A DNA stretch of 64,000 nucleotides from Polaribacter sp. HaHaR_3_91 (GTDB lineage: Bacteria; Bacteroidota; Bacteroidia; Flavobacteriales; Flavobacteriaceae). A program made the translations under genes and the position numbers. Location: positions 1,956,001 through 2,020,000 of the forward strand of contig NZ_CP058986.1 in NCBI RefSeq assembly GCF_019278525.1. The letters run 5' to 3'. Shown here piece by piece: positions 10,716 through 53,821 of this stretch (positions are counted from its first letter, which is position 1; every line of letters starts with the position of its first letter). The notes below the pieces were generated by a model, which searched no databases, was not told where the DNA came from, and saw nothing but the letters and a program-made list of their open reading frames with translations.

Positions 10716-13241
10716 CTACACCCTAAAAGGCACTTCACTATCTTCTTTATCAAAATTTCTTTGAGGTACCAATTTGTTTTCTAACGGCTCGTAGAGTTCA
10801 GATTTCATATTACTACCATTGAATTTAGAGGTCCAGTATACCAACTTCTTTAAATTCATATTTCTAAAGTCTTCAGATACTTTTTCCGAAAAATCACAAC
10901 CACTAATACTTAATACTTCCAACTGTGTTAGTGTTGCTAATTCCACAGGTAAAACCACCTGTTTAAAATTGTTTAGACCTAAAACACGTAGGTTTTTCAT
11001 ATGGGCAATCCAGGTCGGAATTTCTTCTTCTTTATGATGTGCTCTGATAAAAAGTGTTTCTAAATTTAATTCAGAAATCGTTTCAGGATACGTGCTATCA
11101 TTTTCATCTAAACCTTCTAACCAAAGATGTTTTAAAGAATTCCAACGCGATATTACTTCAATACTTTCATCACTAATATGATCACATTGTATCAGTTTTA
11201 CAGCTTCAATACTTTCAACGTTTAGGTTGTCTATGGTTTTAACAGCTACACTCTGCATTATTAATTTTTTAAGCTGAGGCAATGTTACCGCAGGAAAAGC
11301 ATCAAAACCTCTAGCTTCAAATACGTCTAAAAATTCAAGGTTTGGTGTATGTGTTAATAAACGCTCTAAAGCCTCGGTAGTTCCGTTATAACTATCAATT
11401 TTTAATACTTTTAAATTTTTATGTTGGTGAGCAGTTAATGCATTGTTATGTTCTGGGTTATTTTTTTTAAACGTAATGGTAAGCGCTTTTAAATTTGCGA
11501 AGTTTTTAAGCAAGCTTCCTAATTGACTCACATTACTGGTAAAATCAAACGATTCAATTTTTTCTGGATGTCTAAAGGTTTCAAAATTTAAGACATTATT
11601 TACATCAACATTTCTATGTCCAAGATTAAATTTAGCCGCACTAATTACTGCATAAAATTCCTGTAAATTAAGAATTGGTGTGGCTTTAACTTCCACATTA
11701 AACACATGAAACTCTTCTGTTCCTGCTTTTATGCCTTTAATTTCAGAAATAGTTAAATTGGTAATATGCTTAGGTAAATGGTCGGTGTTTACAACTAAAG
11801 CACTCGCATTTTTAATGGTAAGGTTTTCTAACTGCTCTATTTTTGAAAACACATTAGGAAAAATTCTAACAGCTAATTTTATATCTCTAGTACCTGACTC
11901 TTGAAACCTGTATAATTCTACATTTTTAAGATTTGTACATTGCTCAATCCCTTCTAAAAGCCAATCTAGTTTATGCTCTAGTTTGTAATTAAGCGTTGTT
12001 AAGTTTTTAAATGCAGCTAACGCTGTTTTATGTGGAATTTCTGGTGCTTCACAATCCACTGTTATCGTCTTTAAATTAGGGAAAAACGAGGCATTGTCTA
12101 ACACAAAGTTAAGTAGCTTGGGCGAATCTATTTCTATAGATTCTCGCAGACTTACTTCTGTCATTGGTGATATATTAGTTTCGCTATATGTAATTTTTGT
12201 TTCTAATTTAGGTCTAGGCGTTTCTTCAAAACATCTTGATTCGTCTCCAAAAAATAAGGTAGCTGATATGGAATCTATCTTAGGTGCATAAAGTTTAAAA
12301 AGTTCTAATTTTGGTAAATCTTCAAAACCACTTGGTAAGCTAGCTATGCTTTTAGATAAAATCTGAAACTTTTTTAGTTGCTTTAAATGACTAACATCTT
12401 TAGGTAATGCTCTTAATTCACCTAAGCAAAAAAAATCTATACGTTTTAAGGTTGCCGGAAAAACGACCTGAGACATATCTTCAACACCAACATGGTACAG
12501 CTTTAATACTTTTAATTTCGTAAGATTTGTAAGCCAATTAAAATCATTTAAATTCAGGTTGTCCTTACATGCTCTATTCCAATAATCACCTTCAATACGT
12601 AATTTTTTTAAGGATGTTAGCTGAGACATTGTACTTGGAAACTTTTTTAAACAAGGAGCAACAAGCTTTAATTTTTTTAAATTTGATAAATTACCAAAAT
12701 CCTCTGGTAGTTGTTCATAATCACCTTCTAGATCTATTTCTTCTAAAGACGTTAATTTTGATATCTCTTTAATAATACTATCATAAGTATTGCCTTTTCC
12801 TATTAAATGGATTTCTAAACTTTTTACGCCATTAAATCGTCTTAATATATGAGGATGTTCTAGCAAGCGATCTAAGAAGTCTGTTGAAAGATGAAAAGAT
12901 CTCATTTCTCTATTCTTTCTCGTCATTAGATCAAATAATTTAAGAAGATCTAAGTCTTTAGATAGCAATCCATATTCTAAAAGAGATATCATTCTATCGT
13001 CGTGCCTTCCTGTTTGTGTTATTTTTTTTCGGCTTTTAAAGGCTAGTTGCAAAGCTTCTGGGGCTTGTTTTTTTATGATGTTAGCACACTCTGCTCTATT
13101 TTTTTTATCTGTTGTTGCTTTTGCAATCGTAAAAATTTCGTAATAAAAATCTTCTGGAAAGTTTTTACCCTTTTTAATCTCTTCATAATATTCATCCATT
13201 TTATAATAGGTGAATTCAGGGATTTCTGTTGGTCTTGTCAT
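10716..13241 (-). CDS. Leucine-rich repeat protein LRR-1
   Basis: This 841-aa cytosolic protein (no signal peptide or membrane segment) has a helical N-terminal module (about 1-80, including YEEIKKGKNFPEDFYYEIF and KKQAPEALQLAFKSRKKI). About 700 residues of leucine-rich repeats follow, with units of the form LTSLEEIDLEGDYEQLP and LSNLKKLKLVAPCLKKFP. The N-terminal module recurs in the three other LRR proteins of this locus and defines the family. It is the last gene of a three-gene minus-strand unit led by LRR-3. It is nearly a copy of LRR-2, with 151-bp (11837-11987) and 113-bp (12124-12236) stretches identical between them. A protein-binding role is likely from the fold; the partner is unknown. 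Confidence 0.85.
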   Translation of the reverse strand: MTRPTEIPEFTYYKMDEYYEEIKKGKNFPEDFYYEIFTIAKATTDKKNRAECANIIKKQAPEALQLAFKSRKKITQTGRHDDRMISLLEYGLLSKDLDLLKLFDLMTRKNREMRSFHLSTDFLDRLLEHPHILRRFNGVKSLEIHLIGKGNTYDSIIKEISKLTSLEEIDLEGDYEQLPEDFGNLSNLKKLKLVAPCLKKFPSTMSQLTSLKKLRIEGDYWNRACKDNLNLNDFNWLTNLTKLKVLKLYHVGVEDMSQVVFPATLKRIDFFCLGELRALPKDVSHLKQLKKFQILSKSIASLPSGFEDLPKLELFKLYAPKIDSISATLFFGDESRCFEETPRPKLETKITYSETNISPMTEVSLRESIEIDSPKLLNFVLDNASFFPNLKTITVDCEAPEIPHKTALAAFKNLTTLNYKLEHKLDWLLEGIEQCTNLKNVELYRFQESGTRDIKLAVRIFPNVFSKIEQLENLTIKNASALVVNTDHLPKHITNLTISEIKGIKAGTEEFHVFNVEVKATPILNLQEFYAVISAAKFNLGHRNVDVNNVLNFETFRHPEKIESFDFTSNVSQLGSLLKNFANLKALTITFKKNNPEHNNALTAHQHKNLKVLKIDSYNGTTEALERLLTHTPNLEFLDVFEARGFDAFPAVTLPQLKKLIMQSVAVKTIDNLNVESIEAVKLIQCDHISDESIEVISRWNSLKHLWLEGLDENDSTYPETISELNLETLFIRAHHKEEEIPTWIAHMKNLRVLGLNNFKQVVLPVELATLTQLEVLSISGCDFSEKVSEDFRNMNLKKLVYWTSKFNGSNMKSELYEPLENKLVPQRNFDKEDSEVPFRV

Positions 13242-13322
13242 AGTAATCGTTAATTTTTAGGGTATAAATTTCTTTTGGAAATAGGGTTTTTAGATTGCGG
13301 TTCGCTCTAATTTTTTTTTTAG

Positions 13323-15848
13323 CTACCCCCTAAAAGGTACTTCACTATCTATATCATCAAAATTACGTTGAGATACTAATTTGTTCTCTAATGGCTCATA
13401 GATTTCAGACTTCATATTGCTACCATTAAATTTAGACGTCCAATACACCAATTTTTGTAGGTTAAGGGTTCTAAAGTCTTCGGCTACTTTTTCAGAAAAA
13501 TCACAACCACTAATACTTAATACTTCAAGTTGTATTAATGTTGATAATTCTACTGGTAAAACAACTTGTTTAAAATTGTTTATTCCTAATACGCGTAAGT
13601 TTTTAAGATTGGCAATCCAAGTCGGAATTTTTTCATATTTATGATGTGCACTGATAAAAAGCGTTTCTAAATTTAATTCAGAAATCGATTCTGGATATGT
13701 GCCTCCATTTTCATCTAAGCTTTCTAACCAAAGGTGTTTTAGAGAACTCCAATGCGATATTGCTTCAATACTTTCATCGTTAATATGATCACAATGTATC
13801 AGTTTTACCGCTTCAATAGTTTCAACGTTTAGATTGTCTATGGTTTTAAGCGCGACACTCTGCATTAATAATTTTTTAAGCTGAGGCAAATTTACAGCTG
13901 GAAAAGCATCAAAACCTTTGGCTTCAAATATCCCTAAGAATTCAAGGTTTGGTGTGTGTGTTAATAACCGCTCTAAGGCTTCGGTAGTTCCGTTATAATC
14001 ATCAATTCTTAACACTTTTAAATTGTTGTGTTTAAAGGCCGTTAATCCATTATTATGTTCTGAATTGGCCTTCTTAAATGTAATGGTAAGTTCCTTTAAG
14101 TTTATGAAGTTTTTAAGTAAGCTATCTAATTGACTCACATCACTGGTAAAATCAAACGATTCAATTTTTTCTGGATGTCTAAAGTTTTCAAAATCTAACA
14201 CATTATTGACATCATTATTTCTATGTCCAAGATTAAATTTAGCCGCACTAATTACTGCATAAAATTCCTGTAAATTAAGAATTGGTGTGGCTTTAATTTC
14301 CAGATTAAACACATCAAAAGGTTCTGTTCCTGCTTTTATGCCTTTAATTTCAGAAATAGTTAAATTAGTAATATGCTTAGGTAAATGGTCAGTGTCTACA
14401 ACTAAAGCACTAGCATTTTTAATCGTCAGGTTTTCTAACTGTGCTATTTTTGAAAACACATTAGGAAAAATTCTAACAGCTAATTTTATATCTCTAGTAC
14501 CTGACTCTTGAAACCTGTATAATTCTACATTTTTAAGATTTGTACATTGCTCAATCCCTTCTAAAAGCCAATCTAGTTTATGCTCTAGTTTGTAGTTAAG
14601 CGTTGTTAAATTTTTAAATGCTGCTAACGATGTTTTGTGCGGAATTTCTGGTGCTTCACAATCTACAGTTATCGTCTTTAAATTAGGGAAAAACGACGCA
14701 TTATCTAACACAAAATGAAGTAGTTTGGGTGAATCTATTTCTATAGATTCTCGCAGACTTACTTCTGTCATTGGTGATATATTAGTTTCGCTATATGTAA
14801 TTTTTGTTTCTAATTTAGGTCTAGGCGTTTCTTCAAAACATCTAGACGCATCGCCAAAAAAGAGGGTAGACGATATGGAATCTATCTTAGGAGCATTAAG
14901 TTTAAAAAGTTCTAATTTTGGTAAATCTTCAAAACCATTTGGTAAGCTATCTATGCTTTTAGATAAAACCTGAAACTCTTTTAGTTGCTTTAAATTACTA
15001 ACATCTTTAGGCAATGCTATTAATTCATCTAAGCCAAAAAATTCTATAATTTTTAAGGATGCTGAAAACTTGACTTGAGATAGATCTTGAACGCCGATAA
15101 AACGTAGTTTCAACTCTTTTAATTCAGTAAATTTTGTAATCCAATTAAAATCAGTTAGATTCATATTGGGAGTAGATTTCCCAGTCCAATAAGCGCCTTC
15201 AATACGTATTTCTTTTAAGGATGTTAACTGAGACATTGTACTTGGAAACCTTTTTAAACAAGGCGCAACAAGCTTTAGCTTTTTTAAATTTGATAAATTA
15301 CCAAAATCCACTGGTAGTTGCTCAAACTCTCCCTCGAGATCTATTTCTTCTAACGACGTTAATTTTGATATCTCTTTAATAATACTATCATACTTATTAC
15401 CTTGATCTTTTAAATGGATTGTCAATTTTTTAACACCGTTAAATCGGCTTAATATATGAGGATGTTCTAACAAGCGATCTAAAAAATGTACCGAAAACCA
15501 AAAAAATCCCAGTTCTCTATTCTTTCTCGTCATTAGATCGTGTAATTTAAGAAGTTCTAAGTCTTTAGATAGCAACCCGTATTCTAAAAAGGAAATCATT
15601 CTAGCTGCGTTCCTTCCTTTTTGTGTAATTTTTTTTCGGCTTTTAAAGGCTAGTTGCAAAGCTTCTGGGGCTTGTTTTTTTATAATGTTAGCACACTCTG
15701 CTCTATTTTTTTTATCTGTTGTTGCTTTTGCAATCGTAAAAATTTCATAATAAAAATCTTCTGGAAAGTTTTTAGACTTTTTAATCTCTTCATAATATTC
15801 ATCCATTTTATAATAGGTGAATTCAGGGATTTCTGTTGGTTTTGTCAT
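13323..15848 (-). CDS. Leucine-rich repeat protein LRR-2
   Basis: This protein has 841 aa, the same length and architecture as LRR-1: a conserved helical N-terminal module (1-80) and then LRR units to the C-terminus. The spacer upstream of its start matches the spacer upstream of LRR-1, so the duplicated block includes non-coding DNA. Differences between the copies cluster: residues about 80-150 and 200-260 diverge, while much of the central and C-terminal repeats is nearly identical. It lies in the middle of the LRR-3/LRR-2/LRR-1 unit, and no promoter motif is visible in the 78-bp gap before it. Confidence 0.85.
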   Translation of the reverse strand: MTKPTEIPEFTYYKMDEYYEEIKKSKNFPEDFYYEIFTIAKATTDKKNRAECANIIKKQAPEALQLAFKSRKKITQKGRNAARMISFLEYGLLSKDLELLKLHDLMTRKNRELGFFWFSVHFLDRLLEHPHILSRFNGVKKLTIHLKDQGNKYDSIIKEISKLTSLEEIDLEGEFEQLPVDFGNLSNLKKLKLVAPCLKRFPSTMSQLTSLKEIRIEGAYWTGKSTPNMNLTDFNWITKFTELKELKLRFIGVQDLSQVKFSASLKIIEFFGLDELIALPKDVSNLKQLKEFQVLSKSIDSLPNGFEDLPKLELFKLNAPKIDSISSTLFFGDASRCFEETPRPKLETKITYSETNISPMTEVSLRESIEIDSPKLLHFVLDNASFFPNLKTITVDCEAPEIPHKTSLAAFKNLTTLNYKLEHKLDWLLEGIEQCTNLKNVELYRFQESGTRDIKLAVRIFPNVFSKIAQLENLTIKNASALVVDTDHLPKHITNLTISEIKGIKAGTEPFDVFNLEIKATPILNLQEFYAVISAAKFNLGHRNNDVNNVLDFENFRHPEKIESFDFTSDVSQLDSLLKNFINLKELTITFKKANSEHNNGLTAFKHNNLKVLRIDDYNGTTEALERLLTHTPNLEFLGIFEAKGFDAFPAVNLPQLKKLLMQSVALKTIDNLNVETIEAVKLIHCDHINDESIEAISHWSSLKHLWLESLDENGGTYPESISELNLETLFISAHHKYEKIPTWIANLKNLRVLGINNFKQVVLPVELSTLIQLEVLSISGCDFSEKVAEDFRTLNLQKLVYWTSKFNGSNMKSEIYEPLENKLVSQRNFDDIDSEVPFRG

Positions 15849-15926
15849 AGTAATCGTTAATTTTTAGGGTATAAATTTCTTTTGGAAACAGGGTTTTTAG
15901 ATACAGTATGTTGTGCTTTAATTTCT

Positions 15927-18440
15927 TTAACAGCACAGATTATATTTTTCATCTCTGTTATCAAAATCCTCTTTTAAGATTTTATTTTTAGCTAATGCGT
16001 AAAACTTAGACGATTTCATATTGTTTCCATTAAATTTTGAATACCTGTAAATTAAATCCTCTAAATTCAGATTCTTAAATTTATCAGATACTTGTTCTGT
16101 AAAATCACACCCTCTGATACTCATTATTTTTAATTGGGTTAATTCGGCTAATTCTTCCGGTAATGGACAATAATAAAACTGTTCTATTCCTAGAACTCGT
16201 AAGGATTTCATTCTGCCTATCCATTTAGGTATTTGTCTTTTAGTTAAAAATCCATCAATAAAAAAGGTGTCTAAATTTAAGTCTGCAATGGTCTCTGGGT
16301 AGGTTTCAAGATCTTTACTAATGTGTTCTAACCAAAGAAACTTAAGCGTTTTCCAATGCGATGCCGTAACCATAGCATTGTAACCAAAATTGTCACACGA
16401 TAAAACTTTAAAAAGTTCTATGTTGGGCACTGTTAAGTTTTCTATAGACTGTATATCATCGCTATAAAATAATTTTAGCGTTTTTAGTTTATTTAAAGTA
16501 ACCTTAGGAAGATCTACAAGGCCTACACAATCGTAAATTTCTAAAAACTCTAGATGAGGCGTATGCTCTAATAATAATTTAATAACACTAGTGTCACCAT
16601 TAAAATTTTTAATAGTCAAGTTCTTTAAATTATGATGTGTATAAGCGGTTAAACCATTGTTTTGTTCGGCATTATCTACATTAAAATCAATGGTTAGTGT
16701 TTGTAAGTTACAAAGTGCTTTTAATGCCTTATCTAAGCCTTTTACATTACTATTAAATATAAAATCTTTAATGCTTTCAGGGTCTTTAAAATTATCAAAA
16801 TCTAAAGTCTCATTTTTAACACTATTTTCATCGCCTAATTTCATTTTTTTTGCACGTATTACCGAATAAAACTTTTGCAATGCGGTAATAGGTGTATCTA
16901 TTACTTTTAGATTAGTTACCTCAAAATCTTCAATACCCGGCTCAATTACTTTTATATCTGTAATGGTAAGACTATCTGTCTTTATAGGTAAATAATCTGT
17001 ATTTAAAACAAGTGCTTTTGCACGGTGTACTTTTAAGGTTTGCAAATGCTCTATTCTAGAAAATGCCTGAGGAAAATTAGCAACATCAGCGTTCGTTATT
17101 TCAGCATCAGCTCCATTATATATACCATAAATAAAAACGTCTTCTAGCTTTTTACATTCGTGAATACCCTCTAAAACCCATTCTAAATGATGCGCTAATC
17201 TATACTTAAGGTTTTTAAGTTTTTTAAATGCAGAAAGCGTATGTGCACTTCTTCTTTTTGGTGCATCACAATTAATTTCTATCTCTTTTAAATTAGTAAA
17301 AGACAAGGCATTATCTAATACAAAACTAAGAAGCTCTGGATGGGTGAAATCAATTCTTTTTAGCTTAGTTACAGGTGTTTCACCATAAGGCATAAACTCT
17401 GTATACAAACCTAGTAAACGTTTAATATTTGGTCCAAAAATAAAAGCAGCAGGAACTTTTTTTAATTTAGATAAATGAATAGCTTCTAAAACCTCTAAGG
17501 TTTTAAATTCACTAACAGATGCAGGAAAGTGTTCTAGCTCCCTCATACCACTTAGCCTTAATGTTTTTAGTTTTGGTAAGTGACCAAGTGTTTCGGGTAA
17601 AGCTGTTAGATTCTCAAACCTAAAAAGCTCTAATTTTTTTAAACTTGCCGGAAGCTCAACATCAGAAAGGTCTTGTACCGCAAAAGAACCTATTTTTAAA
17701 TGCTTTAAACTGGTAAGTTCTTTAAGCCAAGTAAAGTTAACTATATTAGGGTTAGGCTCGTCATTACCAAAAGGAAAACTTCCTCTAAACTCCAACTTTT
17801 TAAGTGTTTTTAGTTTTGTTATTCCTACGGGAACCCATACCAAATTAGGTGCTGCTAGTATAAACTCTTTTAAGTTAACTAAGCGTTCTAGTTCTTCTGG
17901 TATGTATTTATAATCAATGTCAAGCTCAAGTTTTTCTAATGAAGTAAGTTGCGTTATGTTGTTTACAACGCTACTAAAACCTTCTTTCTGTCTAGAGGTG
18001 CTAATTGTTAATTCTTTAATACCATTAAACTGACTTAAAAGATGTGGTGTTTCTATGAAAAGTTCAATAACTTCTTTACTTCTATATTCAAGCGAAAGCG
18101 TTAAACGCTTACAAACAAGTGTGTATAGTTTACAAAGGTCTAAGTCTTCTGAGAGTACGCCGTACTCTAATATAGCAATCAGTTTTTTGTTAAAAGATTG
18201 AGAATCTTGTATTGTCGTTATTTTTTTTCGACTCTTAAAGGCGAGTTGTAAAGCTTCTGGTGCCTGTTTTTTTATGATATTGGCACATTCGGTTCTAATC
18301 TGCTTGTTTTTAGTAGATTTAGCAAGTACAAAAATCTCATAATAAAAATCTTCAGGATAATTTTTACATCCTTTAATTTTTTCAAAAGATGCTTCATCTT
18401 CATAAAAGTTGAAACCAAGTTCGTGTTTAGCAAATATCAT
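15927..18440 (-). CDS. Leucine-rich repeat protein LRR-3, first gene of the LRR unit
   Basis: This 837-aa LRR protein is clearly homologous to LRR-1 and LRR-2 but much more diverged. It keeps the N-terminal module (NYPEDFYYEIFVLAKSTKNK, then ECANIIKKQAPEALQLAFKSRKK) and the same repeat layout, including the C-terminal signature LRVLGIEQF and a CDF motif near KIMSIRGCDF. It is cytosolic by sequence. It is preceded by a full operator plus -7 element (18511-18464), so it heads the transcription unit. It is divergent from the DUF4132 gene across a 237-bp regulatory region. Confidence 0.85.
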   Translation of the reverse strand: MIFAKHELGFNFYEDEASFEKIKGCKNYPEDFYYEIFVLAKSTKNKQIRTECANIIKKQAPEALQLAFKSRKKITTIQDSQSFNKKLIAILEYGVLSEDLDLCKLYTLVCKRLTLSLEYRSKEVIELFIETPHLLSQFNGIKELTISTSRQKEGFSSVVNNITQLTSLEKLELDIDYKYIPEELERLVNLKEFILAAPNLVWVPVGITKLKTLKKLEFRGSFPFGNDEPNPNIVNFTWLKELTSLKHLKIGSFAVQDLSDVELPASLKKLELFRFENLTALPETLGHLPKLKTLRLSGMRELEHFPASVSEFKTLEVLEAIHLSKLKKVPAAFIFGPNIKRLLGLYTEFMPYGETPVTKLKRIDFTHPELLSFVLDNALSFTNLKEIEINCDAPKRRSAHTLSAFKKLKNLKYRLAHHLEWVLEGIHECKKLEDVFIYGIYNGADAEITNADVANFPQAFSRIEHLQTLKVHRAKALVLNTDYLPIKTDSLTITDIKVIEPGIEDFEVTNLKVIDTPITALQKFYSVIRAKKMKLGDENSVKNETLDFDNFKDPESIKDFIFNSNVKGLDKALKALCNLQTLTIDFNVDNAEQNNGLTAYTHHNLKNLTIKNFNGDTSVIKLLLEHTPHLEFLEIYDCVGLVDLPKVTLNKLKTLKLFYSDDIQSIENLTVPNIELFKVLSCDNFGYNAMVTASHWKTLKFLWLEHISKDLETYPETIADLNLDTFFIDGFLTKRQIPKWIGRMKSLRVLGIEQFYYCPLPEELAELTQLKIMSIRGCDFTEQVSDKFKNLNLEDLIYRYSKFNGNNMKSSKFYALAKNKILKEDFDNRDEKYNLCC

Positions 18441-18463: not shown

Positions 18464-18511
18464 CAAACCTATTTTAAAAGTAGATGTAATTTATCACTGT
18501 ATTCTGTGATA
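18464..18511 (-). promoter_or_regulatory. Island operator and -7 element, LRR unit
   Basis: Read on the minus strand, the operator is TATCAC-AGAATACA-GTGATA (18511-18492), with perfect half-sites. It is followed after 20 bp by the -7 element TAGGTTTG (18471-18464). This is the most symmetrical copy in the island. The coding start at 18440 lies about 24 bp beyond the -7 element. Confidence 0.75.
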
Positions 18512-18557: not shown

Positions 18558-18605
18558 TATCACTAAATACCGTGAGTAAAAAAAGTTGAAGTACTTTTAT
18601 CTTGC
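18558..18605 (+). promoter_or_regulatory. Island operator and -7 element, DUF4132 unit
   Basis: The operator TATCAC-TAAATACC-GTGAGT (18558-18577) is followed after 20 bp by a degenerate -7 element TATCTTGC (18598-18605). It drives the plus-strand unit starting at 18678 and sits back to back with the LRR operator. Confidence 0.65.
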
Positions 18606-25336: not shown

Positions 25337-25384
25337 AATAGCTGAATACAGTGATAAAAAAAATTAGATGCCTCTGTAGTTTTG
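25337..25384 (+). promoter_or_regulatory. Island operator and -7 element, first DUF1444-like gene
   Basis: The operator AATAGC-TGAATACA-GTGATA (25337-25356) has a good right half and a degenerate left half. It is followed after 20 bp by TAGTTTTG (25377-25384), a perfect TAnnTTTG -7 element. An A-tract directly follows the right half. Confidence 0.75.
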
Positions 25385-25409
25385 TAGTAAATAATAAAAA
25401 CAAAACATT

Positions 25410-26021: not shown

Positions 26022-26039
26022 TTCAATTTAAATAATTAC

Positions 26040-26077
26040 AAAAAAGGCATTCTTATTTTTAAGAATGCCTTTTTTTA
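26040..26077. terminator. Terminator after DUF1444-like copy 1
   Basis: The stem AAAAAGGCATTCTT / AAGAATGCCTTTTT with a 6-base loop (26041-26054, 26061-26074) is followed by T residues. The stem core is identical to that of the terminator at 25248-25287. Confidence 0.8.
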
Positions 26078-26128
26078 TGGTTCTAATTCTATTTAATTAA
26101 ACATCATAAATAATTCCTTAAATCTAGA

Positions 26129-26176
26129 AATGGCTGAATACGGTGATAAAAAACTTTATATGCTTCTCTAATTTTG
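26129..26176 (+). promoter_or_regulatory. Island operator and -7 element, second DUF1444-like gene
   Basis: The operator AATGGC-TGAATACG-GTGATA (26129-26148) is followed by 20 bp and the -7 element TAATTTTG (26169-26176). It is nearly a copy of the module at 25337. Confidence 0.75.
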
Positions 26177-26204
26177 TAGTAAATAATAAAAACTAAACAT
26201 TATT

Positions 26205-26840: not shown

Positions 26841-26911
26841 AAATAGCTAAATACTATTTCTTTTATCAATTGAAAATTATAAAATCTATCAGATAAACCA
26901 CTAAATAAACA

Positions 26912-26959
26912 AATGGCTGAATACAGTGATAAAAAAACGTATGTGCTTGTTTAATTTTG
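26912..26959 (+). promoter_or_regulatory. Island operator and -7 element, third tandem copy
   Basis: The operator AATGGC-TGAATACA-GTGATA (26912-26931) is followed by 20 bp and the -7 element TAATTTTG (26952-26959). It is the third near-identical promoter copy in 1.6 kb, but it precedes an unrelated gene. Confidence 0.75.
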
Positions 26960-36794: not shown

Positions 36795-36842
36795 CAAAGA
36801 TGAAACTTTAGTGATGTTTTTAGCTAACTGTTTTCAGTGATA
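36795..36842 (-). promoter_or_regulatory. Island operator and -7 element, unit 36710-30789
   Basis: On the minus strand the operator is TATCAC-TGAAAACA-GTTAGC (36842-36823). It is followed after 20 bp by CATCTTTG (36802-36795), one mismatch from TAnnTTTG. The left half-site is intact and the right one degenerate. Confidence 0.65.
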
Positions 36843-38873: not shown

Positions 38874-38921
38874 CAAAATTAGAGGGAATGTGCTTTTTTT
38901 TTATCACTGAAATTAATGATA
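38874..38921 (-). promoter_or_regulatory. Island operator and -7 element, unit 38846-36888
   Basis: On the minus strand the operator is TATCAT-TAATTTCA-GTGATA (38921-38902). It is followed after 20 bp by a perfect -7 element TAATTTTG (38881-38874). Its position inside the longer alternative ORF start argues for the shorter start. Confidence 0.75.
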
Positions 38922-39899: not shown

Positions 39900-39947
39900 C
39901 AAAGATAATTACTCGTTTAAAAATGGTACTGCCTGATTTCAGTGATA
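39900..39947 (-). promoter_or_regulatory. Island operator and -7 element, gene 39880-38972
   Basis: On the minus strand the operator is TATCAC-TGAAATCA-GGCAGT (39947-39928). It is followed after 20 bp by a perfect -7 element TATCTTTG (39907-39900). The coding start at 39880 is about 20 bp beyond. Confidence 0.7.
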
Positions 39948-39978: not shown

Positions 39979-40026
39979 AATCACCCTTTTCGGGGATAAA
40001 AAAATGAAGAGTTACCTATAATTTTG
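39979..40026 (+). promoter_or_regulatory. Island operator and -7 element, vWA/AdSS unit
   Basis: The operator AATCAC-CCTTTTCG-GGGATA (39979-39998) is the most diverged copy, with a compensating palindrome CCC...GGG. It is followed after 20 bp by a perfect -7 element TAATTTTG (40019-40026) and an A-tract after the right half. It moves the first gene's start to 40042. Confidence 0.65.
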
Positions 40027-42436: not shown

Positions 42437-42484
42437 AATCATTAGTTTCAGTGATAAAAAAAATATTGATCCAAAGTATCTTAG
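42437..42484 (+). promoter_or_regulatory. Island operator and -7 element, unit 42507-51637
   Basis: The operator AATCAT-TAGTTTCA-GTGATA (42437-42456) is followed by an A-tract and, after 20 bp, TATCTTAG (42477-42484), one mismatch from TAnnTTTG. It heads the six-gene unit containing the two-component system, so the proposed regulator would control its own synthesis. Confidence 0.7.
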
Positions 42485-43550: not shown

Positions 43551-43606
43551 AATCTTCTGAAAAAGAATAAAATATATTAGAATATAATTTGAATAACACT
43601 TAGTAA

Positions 43607-46096: not shown

Positions 46097-46099
46097 ATA

Positions 46100-46759
46100 A
46101 TGACACAAGAAATAACACCAAAAATACAAGACCAATTAAATTTATCGGCCTTGATTTTGAAGAAAAATTATAAAAGTGCCGACTTAACAAGTTGGTCTGG
46201 TTTCGATTTAGAAAATCAAATGGATGTTAAGCAAGCAAAACGTCTTTTAAGTTTATATGGCATAAAATCTGGTTTGCATTTACGTAATAGTTTGCAACGT
46301 TACGAAAACGGAGAAATGGTTTCTAATACATTCGAAAAACTTGCAATAGAATTCCGAATGAGTACTACAAAAGATTTTGATGCAAAATACAATGCCGAAG
46401 AAAATCCAAAAACGAAAGGCATTTATAAAATGGTTTGGAAATACCGTTTTAGTCTAAAAAAGCAAAAATTGTTTGGGTATGAAATGGCGTACTATATTTT
46501 TCAAATGCGCTTAGGGCACGTATTAGGTTTTATTGATACAAGAGAAATGATTTTACGTTTAGAAGAAGCGAACGAAACTATAAAATCTACCTTTTCTAGT
46601 TGGGGAGAATTTCATAGAAATGTATGTTTAGGAGATGAATATGTTTTAGGAACAACAGAACAAGATGTTAGTAAATTTCCTGGTATGGAAACACTTTGGG
46701 AATGCTACCAACGCTTATATATAGAACATGCCGATTGGTTTAAAACATGGAAAAAATGA
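46100..46759 (+). CDS. DUF1266-like protein
   Basis: This 219-aa soluble protein has a C-terminal half with the DUF1266 pattern: a GYEMAYYIFQMRLGHVLGFI helix pair, EMILRLEEANETIKSTFSSW, then GEFHRNVCLGDEYVLG. DUF1266 proteins (YbeU/YbeR-type) are uncharacterised. The stop overlaps the start of the TPR gene in an ATGA arrangement, showing translational coupling. It is part of the SUKH-829aa-DUF1266-TPR-kinase-regulator operon. Confidence 0.65.
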   Translation: MTQEITPKIQDQLNLSALILKKNYKSADLTSWSGFDLENQMDVKQAKRLLSLYGIKSGLHLRNSLQRYENGEMVSNTFEKLAIEFRMSTTKDFDAKYNAEENPKTKGIYKMVWKYRFSLKKQKLFGYEMAYYIFQMRLGHVLGFIDTREMILRLEEANETIKSTFSSWGEFHRNVCLGDEYVLGTTEQDVSKFPGMETLWECYQRLYIEHADWFKTWKK

Positions 46760-49005
46760 GTTTAACAAGACAAGAAGTTATCACACAAATAGCGCGTGCA
46801 GAAGAACTTTATAAAGCAAATCTTTATGCTCCTTTGCAACCTATTATGGCCAATATTCAAGAAAATATTGAAATATTAGGGGAGAGTTATCCTGCAGATA
46901 CTGCCAGATATTATCGTATGTATATGCTTTATATTGGTGTTTTTGAAGAACTAAATATGCCTGTTTTAGAGTCTTATTTACAGGCTTTAATCAATATAAA
47001 TGAAGTTTTACCTTCAGATTATGAATACGTTTGTAGTTATTATAAACAATGTAAAGATTGGGTGTATGAAACGGCATTAATGGCACATCCGTATAACGAA
47101 ACTTTACACATCCATTTTGCTTTAAAGCTGCAAGAAGAAAACCGATTTGAAGAAGCAATTGTTACGTTAAAATATATTTTAGAATGTTATCCTGCGTTAA
47201 CCGAAGCACGACTTTTACTTTGGGAAGTAGAAACTGCTCGTATAGAGCAATTACGTATTTCTACGGAAGTAATAGATTCTTATGAATTATTAAATTTAGC
47301 ATCAGATACTCATCGTAAAGAAATTTTAAAAGGCTTACAATTTGATGATAATTTAGAGCAAGCAGATCAAAATTTAGCACGTATTCAAGTGGCCTTATGG
47401 GACAATAAATCTTCCGAAAATAAAAAGCAATGGATTGCAGAATGGAGACATTTAGAATTAACAGATATTACTCGTTTTTTATTAGCAGATTATGCTAAAT
47501 CTTTTATGATGTACGATATGGTGTCACAAATTTTAGCAGCACCACAAAAACCTATATTTCCAGAAGAAAATTACACCAATTTTCAAGAATATCAAAATTA
47601 TATGAAAGCCTTAGCAAACTCTGGTTGGCAATTGGCACAACATCAATATTTGTTAATAGGAAATTCATCATACTATTATTCAAAAAACAAAAAAACCATA
47701 GAAATTTGTGTAGAACGCGGTTTAGCTATAAACCCGAAAAATCCGTTGCTACTAGTTTTAAAAGCGAAGTCTTTTTTCTTTGTAAAAGATTATAACGCTA
47801 CGGGAGCAGCTTATCATGAGGCCTTTAAAAATGGACTTAGAATGAGTGAATATTTGTTTTATTTACTAGAAGTGAATAGTAGAATAGAAAGTTGGCAAGG
47901 TATTTTAGATATTGTAGTACAATTTCACAGAAGAAAAGCACCAACGCTTAAAACCTTATTTTTTCAAGCGCGTGCGCTTATTAAATTAAACAGATTTAAT
48001 GAAGCTTATAAAGTTATTAATGAAGCACTTCTAGATTTTCCGTTACCACAACATTCGTACGCACCTTGGTTGTATAATTTACGTATGATTATTCATAAAA
48101 GAAACCATAATTACACCGCCTTTTTTGAAGATATGCAAGAAGAAATTAACTTTTATAAAATTGGTGATGACGATTATTGTAGTACCATGAATATGTGTAT
48201 TGAAGCACTTATAGAAAAAGGAGATTGTGAAGAAAGTTATAAATACGCAATCTATAATTATGAGCAAGGAAAATTATCGGCAGACTTATATCCTGTATTT
48301 CAATGGATCTGTTTTTACACCTTTTTAAAAAAACCAGACGATTTAAAGAAAGTTACGGAAGCAGATTTAGTACAAAACCCAACTACATTTATAGATTACA
48401 GAAATAACGGTTTTATCTTTTGGATGTTAAGAAATACTAAGGATGGATCTGAATCTTTAAAAAAGGCAGCAGAACTTTCTACGAATAAAGGTGCTTATTT
48501 AAAATTAGCATTAGTGTGTTTAACAGAAGGGTTTGATAAGCCATCTGCTATAGCACTTTGTGAAACCATTAAAAAAGAAGCTCCGGAAGCTAGAGATTGG
48601 AAACTAGATTTTGAGTATTCTAACTTATTAAAAGAAGATAACCAACATGAAGAAGCTTTATTAGCACATCAAAATTTATTACAACGTTATCCGGAAGAAT
48701 CGTTTTTTAATTTCCCTAAAGATGAGTATAATGTAATGTTAAGAGTCTTTAAGCATTTTTCTAAAGAGTTAAATAATGTAGAGGGATTTACAAAATACAA
48801 TGCGATGTATCTAAGTAAAGATAATCCGTCTGAAGATGCTTTGTTAGAACAATTAGAAATTGCAACCACAAATTATAAAGAAGATGTATTTTTGCAACAT
48901 AATTTACTGGAAAGCGTTTCTAAATTAAATATTGAATTTAAAAACGGAGAAATTGAAATGTTAAAAGAATTGAAAACAAAAATTAGAAACATTTATTTCG
49001 CTTAA
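46756..49005 (+). CDS. Tetratricopeptide-repeat protein
   Basis: This protein has about 749 aa. The start at 46756 overlaps the previous stop (ATGA); an ATG at 46747 would add three residues. It is built of TPR/SEL-like helix pairs, for example HIHFALKLQEENRFEEAIVTLKYILECYP-type units, FQARALIKLNRFNEAYKVI and HEEALLAHQNLLQRYPE. It has no signal peptide. It is probably an adaptor for protein complexes made by the same operon, and is distinct from the TPR sensor kinase that follows it. Confidence 0.8.
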   Translation: MSLTRQEVITQIARAEELYKANLYAPLQPIMANIQENIEILGESYPADTARYYRMYMLYIGVFEELNMPVLESYLQALININEVLPSDYEYVCSYYKQCKDWVYETALMAHPYNETLHIHFALKLQEENRFEEAIVTLKYILECYPALTEARLLLWEVETARIEQLRISTEVIDSYELLNLASDTHRKEILKGLQFDDNLEQADQNLARIQVALWDNKSSENKKQWIAEWRHLELTDITRFLLADYAKSFMMYDMVSQILAAPQKPIFPEENYTNFQEYQNYMKALANSGWQLAQHQYLLIGNSSYYYSKNKKTIEICVERGLAINPKNPLLLVLKAKSFFFVKDYNATGAAYHEAFKNGLRMSEYLFYLLEVNSRIESWQGILDIVVQFHRRKAPTLKTLFFQARALIKLNRFNEAYKVINEALLDFPLPQHSYAPWLYNLRMIIHKRNHNYTAFFEDMQEEINFYKIGDDDYCSTMNMCIEALIEKGDCEESYKYAIYNYEQGKLSADLYPVFQWICFYTFLKKPDDLKKVTEADLVQNPTTFIDYRNNGFIFWMLRNTKDGSESLKKAAELSTNKGAYLKLALVCLTEGFDKPSAIALCETIKKEAPEARDWKLDFEYSNLLKEDNQHEEALLAHQNLLQRYPEESFFNFPKDEYNVMLRVFKHFSKELNNVEGFTKYNAMYLSKDNPSEDALLEQLEIATTNYKEDVFLQHNLLESVSKLNIEFKNGEIEMLKELKTKIRNIYFA

Positions 49006-49028
49006 AGGTACTATGTTTACAGAACTTA

Positions 49029-50996
49029 ATGAAGCTACTTATAAAACATCATCTTTTAGTAATACTCCTTTTCTTAGGCGTAATTAATCTCACTTTTGCA
49101 CAGGCGGTAAATAATACGCCTCGTATAGATTCTCTTACTTTAGAATATCAAAAGAACCTTAATTCTAATCCGCAAGTAGCAAAAAAAGCAGCTACAGAAT
49201 GGCTTAAAGAAAGTAGAAAATTAAAAATTGATATTCAAGAAGTTAGTGCATTGTATGCTTTAGGTAATTTGGGTAATATTACTGGAGATTATAAGAGTAC
49301 CATTACGTATACAAATGAAGCAATCTCTTTACTTCATAAATTAAATATAGAAAAAGGTTTAGCAGCTTGTTATAATATTATGGCATCTGCTTATAAAAAC
49401 TTAGGAGAATACCCGAAAGCTATTGATAACTTTATGCAATGTTTAAGTTTTTCAGAAAAAACAAATGATAAAGTACAAGAGGCAAATGCTTATCAAAATA
49501 TTGCAACCCTTTATTTGCTTCAAAAAGAATATCAAAAATCTGCAGAAAATTTAGATCGTGCAGCCAATATTTACAGAGAATTAGGTGACAATGATGGCGT
49601 TTTAACTACCTTATTTAATTTTGCTAATATTTTAAAAGAAGAAGGAAAGTTTGATAAAGCGCGTAAGCATTATAAAACAATTTTAGACTATAGAGAAAGA
49701 GAAGGAAATAAAGCAGTTATTGCTTATGTAAACATTAATCTTTCTCAAATGTTGGTAGAAGAAGAACGTTGTGAAGCTGCTGTAATTGCTTTAAAGAAAA
49801 CATTAAGGCTTTTAAAAGAGCTAAAATTTTATTCTGATATTGCTATTGTTTTAAACGATTTGGGGTTATGTGAAGCTAAATTAGGTCATAAAAAAGAAGC
49901 TATTAATTACTTTAAAGAAGCATTGGCAATTGGAGATGAGCAATCTTTATCCGTTTACAAATCTGATATTTACAAGAATTTAGCACAACTTTATGAAGAA
50001 GAAAAAAACTATGAAAAAGCATTAGAGTTTTATCAAAAAGGAGTTGCTACCGTTGCAGAGCAAAAGACATTAGATAAAGAAAAATATGTAGCGAAAATTC
50101 AAGAAGGGTATGAAACACAATTAAAAGAAGCTAGAATTCAGCTTTTAGAAAAGGAACAAAAAATAAGTGAAGTTGAGTTACAAAAAGTAGAATTAACTGT
50201 TAAAAGACAACGTATTGTTAGAAATGCTTTTATAGCTGGTTTTGTACTTGTAGTAGTCATTTTAATTATACTTAGATTATCTTACGTTAAACGTTTACGC
50301 ATTCAGAAAGAATTAAATTTACAACAAGAAGAAAATGCAAAACAAAAAATTACAGATATGATGAAGGATCATAAATTATCTGTAATAGAACGTTATCAAG
50401 AAGGGCAAGATGAAGAACGTTCTAGATTAGCACGTGAAATTCATGATGGAATTGGAAGTGATTTGGCGGGTATAAAAATAGCTTTTGAACACTTTACAGA
50501 AAATAGTAAAGAGGAGTTACAATCTAAAAGAATTGCAAATGCTATAAATAATGCTTGTGTAGATGTGCGTAGTCTTTCTCATCAATTACATCCGCTTTCT
50601 TTTTCTAAAATAGGATTTACTAGCTTTTTAACTGATTTTATTGATCAAATAACAAAGAAATCTAAACTAGATATTCAAACCTATTTCTTCCCAGAAGAAG
50701 ATATAGATAAATTACCAGCAGCACTTTTAGCAGATGCTTATAGAATTGTACAAGAATTATTAAATAACATTCTAAAACATGCAGAAGCAACAAGTGCAGA
50801 TGTACAATTAACCAAGCATGAAGACCATTTAAATATTGTAATTACAGATAATGGTAAAGGGTTTGTAAAGAATAAAAAACAAGGAATTGGGCTACGTAAT
50901 ATTAAAGAACGTTTACAAAAAATAAATGGAACTTTAGATATAGATAGCAGTTCTAATCATGGAACTTCTATTACAATAGACATTCCAACAACATAA
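49029..50996 (+). CDS. TPR-domain sensor histidine kinase (NarX/HisKA_3 type)
   Basis: This 655-aa membrane sensor has an N-terminal signal sequence (LLVILLFLGVINLTFAQA) and a periplasmic TPR array (about 60-350, with LAACYNIMASAYKNLGEYPKAI). One transmembrane helix (AFIAGFVLVVVILIILRL) and a coiled coil follow. The dimerisation/phosphoacceptor box is REIHDGIGSDLAGIK with H472, followed by a HATPase domain (ELLNNILKHAE, VITDNGKGF, GIGLRNIKERL). It is the typical Bacteroidota TPR kinase and partners the regulator 5 bp downstream. The periplasmic TPRs imply that an envelope or imported ligand is sensed. Confidence 0.92.
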   Translation: MKLLIKHHLLVILLFLGVINLTFAQAVNNTPRIDSLTLEYQKNLNSNPQVAKKAATEWLKESRKLKIDIQEVSALYALGNLGNITGDYKSTITYTNEAISLLHKLNIEKGLAACYNIMASAYKNLGEYPKAIDNFMQCLSFSEKTNDKVQEANAYQNIATLYLLQKEYQKSAENLDRAANIYRELGDNDGVLTTLFNFANILKEEGKFDKARKHYKTILDYREREGNKAVIAYVNINLSQMLVEEERCEAAVIALKKTLRLLKELKFYSDIAIVLNDLGLCEAKLGHKKEAINYFKEALAIGDEQSLSVYKSDIYKNLAQLYEEEKNYEKALEFYQKGVATVAEQKTLDKEKYVAKIQEGYETQLKEARIQLLEKEQKISEVELQKVELTVKRQRIVRNAFIAGFVLVVVILIILRLSYVKRLRIQKELNLQQEENAKQKITDMMKDHKLSVIERYQEGQDEERSRLAREIHDGIGSDLAGIKIAFEHFTENSKEELQSKRIANAINNACVDVRSLSHQLHPLSFSKIGFTSFLTDFIDQITKKSKLDIQTYFFPEEDIDKLPAALLADAYRIVQELLNNILKHAEATSADVQLTKHEDHLNIVITDNGKGFVKNKKQGIGLRNIKERLQKINGTLDIDSSSNHGTSITIDIPTT

Positions 50997-51001
50997 ATAT
51001 T

Positions 51002-51637
51002 GTGAAAAAAACAAACATTATTATCGCAGACGATCACCTTATGTTTTTAGAAGGCATAAACACCATATTAAGTGATATGGAAGAAATTGGTGAAATACAT
51101 ATAGCAACAGAAGGTAAACAAGTAATTCGATTGTTAAGTCAGTTTGAAGTTGGCTTAATTATTAGTGATATTAGCATGCCAAAAATGGACGGTATTGAGT
51201 TACTTACCGAAATAAAGAAAAAGCATAGTAAGGTAAAAATTATTATGTTAAGCATGTTAGATAACCATAGAACGGTACATAAAGTAATACAAAAAGGTGC
51301 TGATGGTTTTGTGCCAAAATTTACAAGTAAAGACGAATTGCAAAAAGCGGTACGTACTGTTTTAGGTAACGAACAATATTTTTCTAAATTGATAAAAGAA
51401 CGTTATATGGAAAGCGTTTTTAAACGTAAAAAATATAAAAATATAGAAATTTCTCCTCGAGAAAAAGAAGTATTAGCGCTTTTATCGGAAGAGTTAACGT
51501 CTAAAGAAATTTCTGAAAAATTGTTTATTTCTGTAAATACGGTAGAAACGCATCGAAAAAATATCCTTTTAAAAACAGGCTCTAAAACAACAACCGGAGC
51601 TGTAAAATACGCCATAGAATCTGGTTTATTTGATTAA
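51002..51637 (+). CDS. NarL/LuxR-type response regulator
   Basis: This 211-aa regulator has an N-terminal receiver with the acidic pair (IADDH), phosphoacceptor Asp D56 (IISDISMPKMDG) and the conserved Lys. The C-terminal LuxR helix-turn-helix reads SPREKEVLALLSEELTSKEI, then ISVNTVETHRKNIL. The gene starts with GTG, 5 bp after the kinase gene, and is the last of the operon. As the only DNA-binding regulator in the island, it is the best candidate to bind the 13 operators. Dimeric LuxR-type regulators do bind palindromes near -40, but there is no direct evidence here. Confidence 0.92.
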   Translation: MKKTNIIIADDHLMFLEGINTILSDMEEIGEIHIATEGKQVIRLLSQFEVGLIISDISMPKMDGIELLTEIKKKHSKVKIIMLSMLDNHRTVHKVIQKGADGFVPKFTSKDELQKAVRTVLGNEQYFSKLIKERYMESVFKRKKYKNIEISPREKEVLALLSEELTSKEISEKLFISVNTVETHRKNILLKTGSKTTTGAVKYAIESGLFD

Positions 51638-51700: not shown

Positions 51701-52693
51701 TTATTTAGTTCTAATTCCTTCTTTTTCTATTGTTTCTACAATTTGTCTTAATTCTTTTACATAAGTATTTTTATCACTTTCTTCTGTTAGCAATTCTCCT
51801 TTATAAATAAATTTAGAATCTAAATCAAAATAGAGAACATAAAGTCCTGTTTGTGGGTTTTCCCATTTCCCTTTTCCATCATTTACAATTCTCTTGTCGT
51901 CTAAATACTGAATCCAAGCACCTTTAGATAAAGAAGACTTGTCCATATAAATTTTTCTATACTCCGTAATTTTAAAATAAGGATTAGAAACTTCTAATTT
52001 ATCTTCTATATTTTTTTGAATCATTGTTTCTAAAACTTCAAAATTATTGATAGATTCTGATAATAAATATGGTCTTCTTTCCCATTTACTATCTTCTATT
52101 ACTAACGGAATTATTATAAACCCTTCCGGGTGTTTAGGTGTTTTAATAACTAAGCTAAATTGAAACCCCGTATTTAACTCTTTTATAGTATTGTTTAATC
52201 GATCTGTAAAACGTGCTACTACATTCTCTAAAGCTGTTGGAGTTATATTTTTATCAAACTTTAATTCGATAGTTTCTGTAGAGAATTTTACTTCAGAAAT
52301 TTCATTTTTAAAATCATCAATAACTTCTTGCCTAGTTTCATATTGCTTTAATGCATCTTGGTATAAGTTATCTACCGTCATTACATCTGTAGTAGCATAC
52401 ATTGGTAAAGTATCATTTACTAATATATTTTTAGCATCAAGATGAGTATAGAATTCAATTTCTGGTATTTCTTTATCATAAATAAGAACACCAAATATAT
52501 TGGGATCCATTGTTGCTGCATTAAAAAAACGATTTAAATCACTAAAAACAAGTTTACCATTATATTCTCTTTGCAAATAGGTTTCTAAATTTAAAGAAGC
52601 TTTCTTTTTAGAAATTCCGATATAATTAGAACAACCTACAACGATTAGTATTAAAATTATTAAACAAATTACTGACATAATTGTAATTTTCAT
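51701..52693 (-). CDS. Lipoprotein of unknown family
   Basis: This 330-aa protein has a lipoprotein signal (IILILIVVGCSNY). The mature part is mixed helix and strand and includes DLNRFFNAATMDPNIFGVLIYD, a long helix before IKTPKHPEGFIIIPL, and KGAWIQYLDDKRIVNDG. I do not recognise a family. It may supply an envelope component sensed by the TPR kinase, which is guesswork from position. It has its own operator (52760-52741). Confidence 0.65.
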   Translation of the reverse strand: MKITIMSVICLIILILIVVGCSNYIGISKKKASLNLETYLQREYNGKLVFSDLNRFFNAATMDPNIFGVLIYDKEIPEIEFYTHLDAKNILVNDTLPMYATTDVMTVDNLYQDALKQYETRQEVIDDFKNEISEVKFSTETIELKFDKNITPTALENVVARFTDRLNNTIKELNTGFQFSLVIKTPKHPEGFIIIPLVIEDSKWERRPYLLSESINNFEVLETMIQKNIEDKLEVSNPYFKITEYRKIYMDKSSLSKGAWIQYLDDKRIVNDGKGKWENPQTGLYVLYFDLDSKFIYKGELLTEESDKNTYVKELRQIVETIEKEGIRTK

Positions 52694-52712: not shown

Positions 52713-52760
52713 TAAATGTAGACGAATCTATTGGTAAAGTACTCACGGAATTCAGTGAGT
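52713..52760 (-). promoter_or_regulatory. Island operator and -7 element, lipoprotein gene
   Basis: On the minus strand the operator is ACTCAC-TGAATTCC-GTGAGT (52760-52741), nearly a perfect palindrome. It is followed after 20 bp by TACATTTA (52720-52713), one mismatch from TAnnTTTG. Confidence 0.7.
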
Positions 52761-52766: not shown

Positions 52767-52814
52767 TTTCACTTAATGATGGTACAAATTTAAGAATCTC
52801 TTCTAATATCTTTG
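52767..52814 (+). promoter_or_regulatory. Island operator and -7 element, gene 52844-53239
   Basis: A weak operator TTTCAC-TTAATGAT-GGTACA (52767-52786) is followed after exactly 20 bp by a perfect -7 element TATCTTTG (52807-52814). The spacing, more than the half-sites, supports it. It lies 6 bp from the divergent operator. Confidence 0.5.
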
Positions 52815-52843: not shown

Positions 52844-53239
52844 ATGAAATTAGAAGAAAAAAAAGCGGTGAAATTAATAGAAGACCAATATTTAGGAGCT
52901 TATCAGAAAGAAGTAAATGAGATTCTAGGTAAAGAAATCCCTATTAATATTAATTGGGATACTTTTGAAATATACTTTATTAAATTTGTGCCAAGTATCT
53001 GTTTACAACGCCTTACAGATGGTTTAAAAGAAGTTTGTAGAAACGATAAATTAAGAGAAGTTATTGCAGCAAATATAAACGCAATAGAAATATATTGTGT
53101 ACCTAATGAAGATGCGGAAACTAAAAAAGAATTAAAATTAGGTGGTGGTGTATTTTCTTTAACAGCATGTTGGGGCGGTCATCAAAGTGGTTATTATACA
53201 GACTTAGATATTACCGAATATTTAGAAAGTAATTTATAG
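52844..53239 (+). CDS. Small hypothetical protein
   Basis: This 131-aa soluble protein belongs to no family I recognise. A helical N-terminus precedes INWDTFEIYFIKFVPSICLQRL. The C-terminal half is beta-rich (AIEIYCVPNEDAE, KLGGGVFSLTACWGGHQSGYY). It forms a single-gene unit with its own promoter, divergent from the lipoprotein gene. Confidence 0.6.
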   Translation: MKLEEKKAVKLIEDQYLGAYQKEVNEILGKEIPININWDTFEIYFIKFVPSICLQRLTDGLKEVCRNDKLREVIAANINAIEIYCVPNEDAETKKELKLGGGVFSLTACWGGHQSGYYTDLDITEYLESNL

Positions 53240-53322: not shown

Positions 53323-53346
53323 TTAGATAATTATACTATAGATTTC

Positions 53347-53748
53347 TTAATTCATTTTTACATCATTAAAAACAACACCTGATAAAATTCCACTAAAATA
53401 AGTACCTTGAGACTGTACGTTATTTTCTGAAAAAGATTGATTGTAATTATGGATGATAGCATCATCAAAAACAAAATTAATTACAGGTTCATCTTGGTTT
53501 TGGTGATAAATTTTTAAACTACCAGACCATTCACCTGGTTTACGAGATAACCATTCTAAAAAGAAAGTACAAATATCATTATTCATTGCTCCAGATATAT
53601 TTACATCTAAACCTCTGTCTTGTTCTTCGTTTGGATAGAAAGTAGAAGATAAATTATAATCACATTGCGATAGCTTAAATAGCTTTTCTGTATGTTCGTC
53701 TTTTTTAATTCTTAACTCTATACGCTGAATTACATTTAATTCTTTCAT
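53347..53748 (-). CDS. TssD/Hcp-like protein (T6SS tube family)
   Basis: This 133-aa protein fits the Bacteroidota TssD/Hcp pattern. A first strand pair leads to KLSQCDYNLSSTFYP, then GLDVNISGAMNND, a FFLEWLSRKPGEWSGSLKI block, then PVINFVFDDAIIHNYNQSF and final strands with GTYFSGILSGVVF. It matches the usual order (CxYxL, FLEWM, SGxIxF, FEDAxxVxYxExF). No other type VI secretion gene is present in the window, so it is an orphan or a domestic adaptor. It is the last gene of the island on this side and has its own operator. Confidence 0.65.
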   Translation of the reverse strand: MKELNVIQRIELRIKKDEHTEKLFKLSQCDYNLSSTFYPNEEQDRGLDVNISGAMNNDICTFFLEWLSRKPGEWSGSLKIYHQNQDEPVINFVFDDAIIHNYNQSFSENNVQSQGTYFSGILSGVVFNDVKMN

Positions 53749-53773
53749 ATTATAATTGTTTTTTTATTTAATA

Positions 53774-53821
53774 CAAAGTTGAAGGAATTAACTTAAATAT
53801 TTCTAACTGTTTTCAGTGATA
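53774..53821 (-). promoter_or_regulatory. Island operator and -7 element, TssD-like gene
   Basis: On the minus strand the operator is TATCAC-TGAAAACA-GTTAGA (53821-53802). It is followed after 20 bp by CAACTTTG (53781-53774), one mismatch from TAnnTTTG. It is almost the same as the copy at 36842-36823. Confidence 0.65.

Follow-up and report, generated by a model that had tools for sequence, protein, structure and literature searches.

Genomic islands under the control of a NarL-type regulator of their own are already known. In case of the SsrA-SsrB/SPI-2 system, a horizontally acquired island carries its own kinase and NarL/FixJ-family regulator, and SsrB reads a degenerate palindrome at the island promoters as well as upstream of its own operon, with only one good half-site at some promoters (excerpts of PMC2837388); all of these traits have a counterpart, in part a presumed one, in the island described here. 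OsdR of Streptomyces and DevR of Mycobacterium likewise resemble the present case in being NarL-family regulators with a palindromic site and many predicted sites around the regulator gene (excerpts of PMC5069765). As to flavobacterial promoters, start-site mapping in F. psychrophilum placed the sequence TAnnTTTG at −12 to −5 (excerpts of PMC9723704).

The window analysed here is the whole 64,000-nucleotide stretch of DNA from Polaribacter sp. HaHaR_3_91. It contains a 43-kb island with the same operator-plus-promoter element before nearly every gene group. To our knowledge, apart from those for sugar utilisation, Bacteroidota offer few known pairs of regulator and operator; here, operator, geometry and likely regulator are assignable from the sequence.

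Operator-promoter modules of the island

All 13 sites of a preliminary description were recovered with their coordinates and strands by a direct check of the window sequence. The layout attributed to them, i.e., a near-palindrome of 20 bp separated by 20 bp from a TAnnTTTG-type box, applies to 12 full modules, the thirteenth (52767, plus strand) being a half-site beside a full operator. The box type holds for most sites, with deviants at 18558 (TATCTTGC), 42437 (TATCTTAG) and 52713 (TACATTTA). Transcription units covering all genes from 10716 to 53748 are consistent with gene order and strand, their boundaries being predicted ones. The E values given below for individual sites refer to a profile from the sites of related islands, searched against the genome of the strain.

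The module at 18464..18511 (minus strand; operator 18492–18511, box TAGGTTTG at 18464–18471; E 5.9e-5), which has orthologous sites in G014 and G346, precedes 15927–18440 and probably also 13323–15848 and 10716–13241. These genes (10716–18440) encode a tandem of three LRR proteins of 837–841 aa, the first two of which start almost identically, suggesting a recent duplication. At 18558..18605 (plus strand; E 2.4e-5), the module precedes 18678–23684 (DUF5724-DUF4132-DUF7737) and the following genes; its box at 18598–18605 is of the TAnnTTGY type and fits motif SM5 of F. psychrophilum. A TAnnTTGC box is present at this promoter in all six relatives in which it was seen (G014, G236, G257, G329, G346 and G100), and a different sigma input is possible at the DUF5724 promoter.

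Three successive plus-strand modules are located at 25337..25384 (E 2.9e-4; before the DUF1444-like 25410–26021), 26129..26176 (E 3.7e-4; before the DUF1444-like 26205–26840) and 26912..26959 (E 8.4e-5; before 27077/27122–27451, the LRR gene 27529–29904 and 29939–30709). They have additional sequence in common, TAGTAAAT after the box. The stretch 25337–26959 probably reflects a tandem duplication that copied its promoter, two of the three modules preceding similar DUF1444-like genes.

On the minus strand, the module at 36795..36842 (box CATCTTTG; E 1.9e-4) precedes 35979–36710 and the minus-strand genes to 30789, that at 38874..38921 (E 9.3e-5) precedes 38199–38846 and probably also 36888–38144, and that at 39900..39947 (E 0.009) precedes 38972–39880 (DUF7738-DUF6892). 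The plus-strand module at 39979..40026 (E 1.9e-4) is followed by 40042–40392, 40395–41258 (VWA family, according to the names of homologues) and 41259–42395 (adenylosuccinate-synthetase-like). Downstream of 42437..42484 (plus strand; box TATCTTAG; E 0.007), for which orthologous sites are present in G014, G236, G257, G100, G329, L042 and G346, lies the stretch 42507–51637 including the kinase and regulator genes.

The remaining full modules are those at 52713..52760 (minus strand; operator 52741–52760, box TACATTTA; E 6.5e-5), preceding 51701–52693 and with a dyad that aligns across 10 islands, and at 53774..53821 (minus strand; box CAACTTTG), preceding the TssD-like 53347–53748 and yielding the best match of the genome (E 2.9e-6). 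The half-site variant at 52767..52814 (plus strand) consists of the left half TTTCAC and the box TATCTTTG, 26 bp from the full palindrome at 52741–52760. It gave no profile match and is weak both with the relatives' matrix (score 9.8) and in the leave-one-out ranking of operators. In the 10-island alignment of the region between 51701 and 52844, the full palindrome is followed by an ungapped left half-site and a TAnnTTTG-like box. Thus, 52767 looks like a half-site promoter aided by the neighbouring operator rather than a standard module, and it probably drives 52844–53239.

Spacing and promoter geometry

Operators were picked in nine related islands with a symmetrised matrix from the window that was blind to the box. 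YAnnTT was found exactly 20 bp away in 36 of 46 operators, each other spacer from 8 to 35 bp accounting for 0–5 of them; the constant 20-bp spacer claimed for the window is therefore upheld in the relatives. Given TAnnTTTG at −12 to −5, the operator would extend from −52 to −33 and be centred at −42.5, i.e., the position of a class II activator. This geometry, already proposed in the preliminary description, fits the mapped flavobacterial promoters (excerpts of PMC9723704), in that the operator is fixed beside the core promoter with its centre near −42, the box position being adopted from F. psychrophilum. Predicted leaders measure 11–25 nt at 10 of the 13 sites, with the start codon chosen by us for three genes (27077, 38846 and 40042), and the published median is 24 nt (excerpts of PMC9723704). 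A TTG in the −33 element was present in none of 60 modules, as compared to only 3 of 32 in the control, which is too weak to establish a loss of this element.

Distinction from chance and confinement to the island

With the operator alone, leave-one-out ranking of about 128,000 window positions placed 10 sites among the first 14, and the plus-strand sites 42437, 39979 and 52767 at ranks 25, 44 and 871; operator and −7 box combined placed 12 sites in the top 14 and 52767 at rank 22. A matrix and an Infernal profile were constructed from 47 sites of nine related islands, excluding the window's own sites. Since the 47 sites had been picked with the window's matrix, the test is held-out and not fully independent. 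With the relatives' matrix, 12 of the 13 sites take the first 12 ranks in the window (scores 22.1–34.5; next place 16.1). No place scoring at least 19 was obtained from 60 dinucleotide shuffles of the window (best 17.2), from the reversed window (best 10.5) or from 15 other loci of the same genome (152,014 bp; best 17.5), so that the site scores are out of reach of shuffles, reversal and control loci.

In the 4,208,346-bp genome, the top 12 matches of the relatives' profile are again 12 of the 13 sites (E 2.9e-6 to 0.009), 150 of 6990 first-look candidates having been scored. The next matches (E 0.026–0.26) are partial and comprise operators at 3630 kb and 1024 kb, island dyads in another reading, and the two copies (359 and 370 kb) of a duplicated coding gene. 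Allowing up to 3 mismatches, a pattern of the whole module matched the genome 10 times, with 9 matches falling inside the island (none in the backward control), and a pattern of the operator alone 40 times, 16 in the island and 24 outside (backward control 13); the outside matches include strong dyads at 1024 kb and 3630 kb. What is confined to the island in this genome is the operator plus box at fixed distance, not the operator alone. The genome-wide scan, a check proposed in the preliminary description, revealed no similar density of the full module outside the island.

At 1024701–1024740 (L001 8702–8743), two near-perfect dyads with the same core are followed by ACCAAAAATGGGTATTG. The gene directly downstream of them, at 1024816, encodes a paralogous NarL-type regulator, and we read dyads and paralogue as a sister regulon with a different layout. 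At 3630263–3631024 (L002 9264–10027), dyads with the same core are found at three places 360–390 bp apart, each followed by TACCCCATAAATGGGTATTG. This gap of about 1 kb has no ORF of at least 90 aa and possibly contains small genes or RNAs.

Regulatory genes and related islands

The island encodes a TPR histidine kinase as presumed sensor (49029..50996, plus strand; HisKA_3 3.5e-9, HATPase_c 1.4e-13) and one NarL/FixJ-type response regulator as presumed reader of the module (51002..51637, plus strand; PF00072 5e-27, PF00196 3.1e-14). The regulator is composed of a receiver domain followed by a LuxR-type HTH and has VraR, NarL and RcsB as PDB relatives; the HisKA_3 kinase adjoins it, and the two are paired by adjacency only. 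The preliminary description named no regulator; the island's own kinase and response regulator are likely to read the module. A 131-aa protein without assigned function (52844..53239, plus strand) is found in these islands and otherwise only in few, diverged systems. Of 397 family genomes, 10 encode it, namely the 7 carriers and, with weak matches, G011, G019 and G297; it co-occurs with the regulator in 7 of 7 carriers among these genomes and has 27 homologues in the protein database.

Six of the 396 other family genomes contain a regulator orthologue with 80–91 % identity, the remaining matches showing at most 46 % and none of them falling between 46 and 80 %. Carriers identified by name are Winogradskyella wichelsiae, Flavobacterium frigidarium, Leeuwenhoekiella aestuarii and Mesonia hippocampi; the locus of L. 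aestuarii duplicates G329 and was therefore left out of the counts. The DUF5724 block is inverted in four islands, including that of G100, with retention of its module, and the modules are kept at orthologous promoters despite this inversion. In G346, the kinase-regulator pair is split off with its own module 139 bp upstream, and the operon left behind keeps its module. The YchJ and DUF2452 neighbours of the window's island are located elsewhere in G014 and G346. The presence of close orthologues in few genomes without intermediates, together with these two displaced flanking genes, points to horizontal transfer, the best reading being that regulator and promoters accompany the island in its passage between flavobacterial genera.

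Within the six carriers, 44 of 50 profile matches (E ≤ 0.05) belong to the island, most of those being training sites; the six outside it are distributed over G257 (two), G100 (one) and G346 (three). The module in G100 precedes a gene for a TssD-like paralogue (31 % identity; L154 4422–5028) about 90 kb from the island, and two of the three matches in G346 represent full modules whose downstream genes have no relation to the island. An apparent signal peptide is present in the G100 paralogue. Such full modules at unlinked loci in G100 and G346 imply that regulon and island need not coincide. The initial view of the island as one regulon is favoured by the genome scan and is still its best reading, with the qualifications that 52767 is a half-site and that the module also occurs at these unlinked loci.

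Twelve genomes without a close orthologue comprised eight without a profile match and four with 1–3 (E ≤ 0.05). In 27 further genomes, chosen mostly for holding a more distant regulator, at least one match (E ≤ 0.1) was found in 17, in total 33, three of them within 3 kb of a regulator homologue. Eight scattered matches in G019, which has no close regulator orthologue, perhaps represent the dispersed regulon of a related regulator.

Dyads at diverged kinase-regulator loci

A recognised kinase gene accompanies 18 of 20 diverged regulator homologues (40–45 % identity). In 10 of these 18 loci, a module at most 350 bp upstream of the kinase gene outscores more than 95 % of the remaining windows of that size in the locus. 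The combined p of 1.5e-10 is no more than indicative, given that windows overlap and that two pairs of positive loci each come from a single genus; one of the 10 is doubtful (G143, module 294 bp away), and 8 of the 18 kinase promoters have no module. When the box is disregarded, the best operator of the 13-kb locus is found 1.3–3.1 kb before the regulator in 10 of 20 cases. Full modules are present near the regulators of G001, G011 and G320 and before the 131-aa homologue of G019, and TAnnTT is exactly 20 bp off in 8 of the 12 dyads of these four genomes. The operator-only search of diverged loci located TAnnTT at 20 bp in 4 of 12 and at 21 bp in 3, and exact spacing is therefore not claimed there.

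No module scoring above 21 was found at 101 further loci, mostly with more distant regulators, 78 of which are informative, the other 23 reaching only 1.5 kb with the kinase promoter outside. Counting of the core palindrome at 80 regulator loci yielded 2 dyads (islands L042 and L043) versus 2, 1 and 0 for three control cores, and thus revealed no general association at this stringency. The association of dyad and regulator appears only in closer homologues and not in all such regulators. The genome of the strain itself encodes several NarL-type regulators; one of six paralogues examined, that at 1024 kb, has dyads directly upstream. A recognition-helix code (E-T-x-R-K, in the island regulator and the 1024-kb paralogue) was dropped in view of many E-T-x-R-K regulators without dyad, a set biased by the use of that peptide as search pattern; E-S-x-R-K regulators with dyad also contradict it.

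Proposed mechanism and alternative readings

Four features together point to a class II activator under positive autoregulation: the kinase-regulator pair inside the island, the dyad at −42.5, its fixed distance from the box, and the module preceding the operon of the pair itself. It is likely that the module represents a class II activator-dependent sigma-A promoter which is read by the island's own kinase-regulator pair in response to one signal and with positive feedback, and that the island moves with both. We infer signal, phosphorylation, binding and activation as follows. On a signal, the TPR kinase would phosphorylate the NarL/FixJ-type regulator, which, presumably as a dimer, would occupy the 20-bp dyad with its centre at −42.5. 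DevR likewise acts from a position near −42.5. The bound regulator, at a constant distance from the −7 box, would bring in RNA polymerase. Since the pair ends an operon that begins with a module, a single signal would induce the entire island in a positive feedback loop, and transfer between flavobacterial genera would carry regulator and promoters along. The activating sign is suggested by the geometry and by the precedents SsrB (excerpts of PMC2837388) and OsdR (excerpts of PMC5069765).

It is unlikely that the dyad is read by another host regulator, e.g., a chromosomal NarL-type paralogue, with a different role for the island regulator. The genome does encode several NarL-type regulators, one of them at 1024 kb with two same-core dyads directly upstream, and has strong dyads at 3630 kb; however, outside dyads appear in the profile matches without a box at 20 bp, and the full module, box included, is limited to the island in this genome. 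Moreover, module and regulator are kept together across genera and chromosomal places, and the pair in G346 retains its own module after rearrangement. A second improbable reading considers the dyad a repressor operator, so that a protein at −52 to −33 would block RNA polymerase and the signal would derepress the island. A palindrome overlapping the upstream promoter region would suit a repressor, but the fixed spacer in nine islands is expected for polymerase contact and unnecessary for a blocker, and NarL/FixJ-type regulators of comparable islands activate (SsrB; excerpts of PMC2837388). Chance, or repeat-element copies spread through the island, can hardly account for the sites, even though the sites at 25337, 26129 and 26912, which resemble each other outside the motif as well and have related genes downstream, probably arose by duplication: spacing, genome profile and shuffle tests refute it for the whole set, the scores being unmatched by shuffles, reversal and control loci, and the spacer sequences differ at most sites with operator and box kept.

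Beyond activation by the island's own pair, it is fairly probable that the island constitutes a portable regulon, in which the pair, the rigid module at every unit and a mostly unstudied cargo move together between genera. The module would also capture unlinked genes in some hosts (the TssD-like paralogue in G100, three loci in G346), the regulon would form one lineage of a wider flavobacterial TPR-kinase/NarL-type family with the same dyad at its own promoter, and the DUF5724 operon may have a second input via its TAnnTTGC box.

Cargo of the island

The cargo includes DUF5724-DUF4132-DUF7737, DUF7738-DUF6892, LRR, SMI1/KNR4, DUF1266 and DUF2314 proteins as well as endonuclease V-like, 2OG-Fe(II) oxygenase-like, VWA-family and PurA-like proteins. 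Searches of Pfam, NCBIfam, PADLOC, PHROGs and the PDB revealed domains and no system, and the anti-phage models of PADLOC matched none of 10 submitted island proteins. The TssD-like profile matched Hcp1 of the PDB weakly (E 0.023); the type VI sheath VipB (PF05943) had no match in the genome of the strain, a search that a divergent sheath could escape. The two proteins encoded at 40395–42395 resemble phage families, the VWA-family protein phrog_2971 (2.6e-45) and the PurA-like protein phrog_1211, 2-aminooxy adenylosuccinate synthetase (1.2e-52). The VWA family has thousands of homologues.

The regulon provides a handle on this large set of unnamed proteins (DUF5724/DUF4132, DUF6892, VWA with PurA-like partner, LRR, TssD-like). 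They are probably co-expressed in response to one signal, identification of which would hint at the purpose of the island. Probably, the genes of the block are switched on together and the block carries its control system along when it passes from one bacterium to another; as a mobile block that keeps its control, it has a module and regulator that outlast inversions and transfer.

Comparison with known regulatory systems

No paper on the module or the island was found in the open-access literature of PMC, which is not proof of absence. As far as this literature search tells, three features appear to be new: the module is rigid, every inferred unit has it, and it is conserved among genera of Bacteroidota.

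The promoters share with the sigma-A promoters of F. psychrophilum the TAnnTTTG-type box at −12 to −5, and its SM5 variant TAnnTTGY matches the box of the DUF5724 promoter; in contrast to the present island, no activator operator is described with such promoters in the excerpts of PMC9723704. OsdR and DevR differ by a 16-nt G+C-rich palindrome, by their occurrence in actinobacteria and by their stress and dormancy genes, with no mobile island shown in the excerpts of PMC5069765.

SsrB recognises an 18-bp palindrome of 7-4-7 structure without strict spacing to the start, whereas the present island has a 20-bp dyad and a fixed 20-bp spacer, and SsrB has many unlinked targets, whereas here the best 12 genome matches are all in the island (for SsrB, excerpts of PMC2837388). 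The cargo of SPI-2 is also unrelated to that of the present island. Nevertheless, the island belongs with self-regulated islands of the SPI-2 kind, in that the regulator is encoded inside and the sites lie at the island promoters, which the regulator would recognise.
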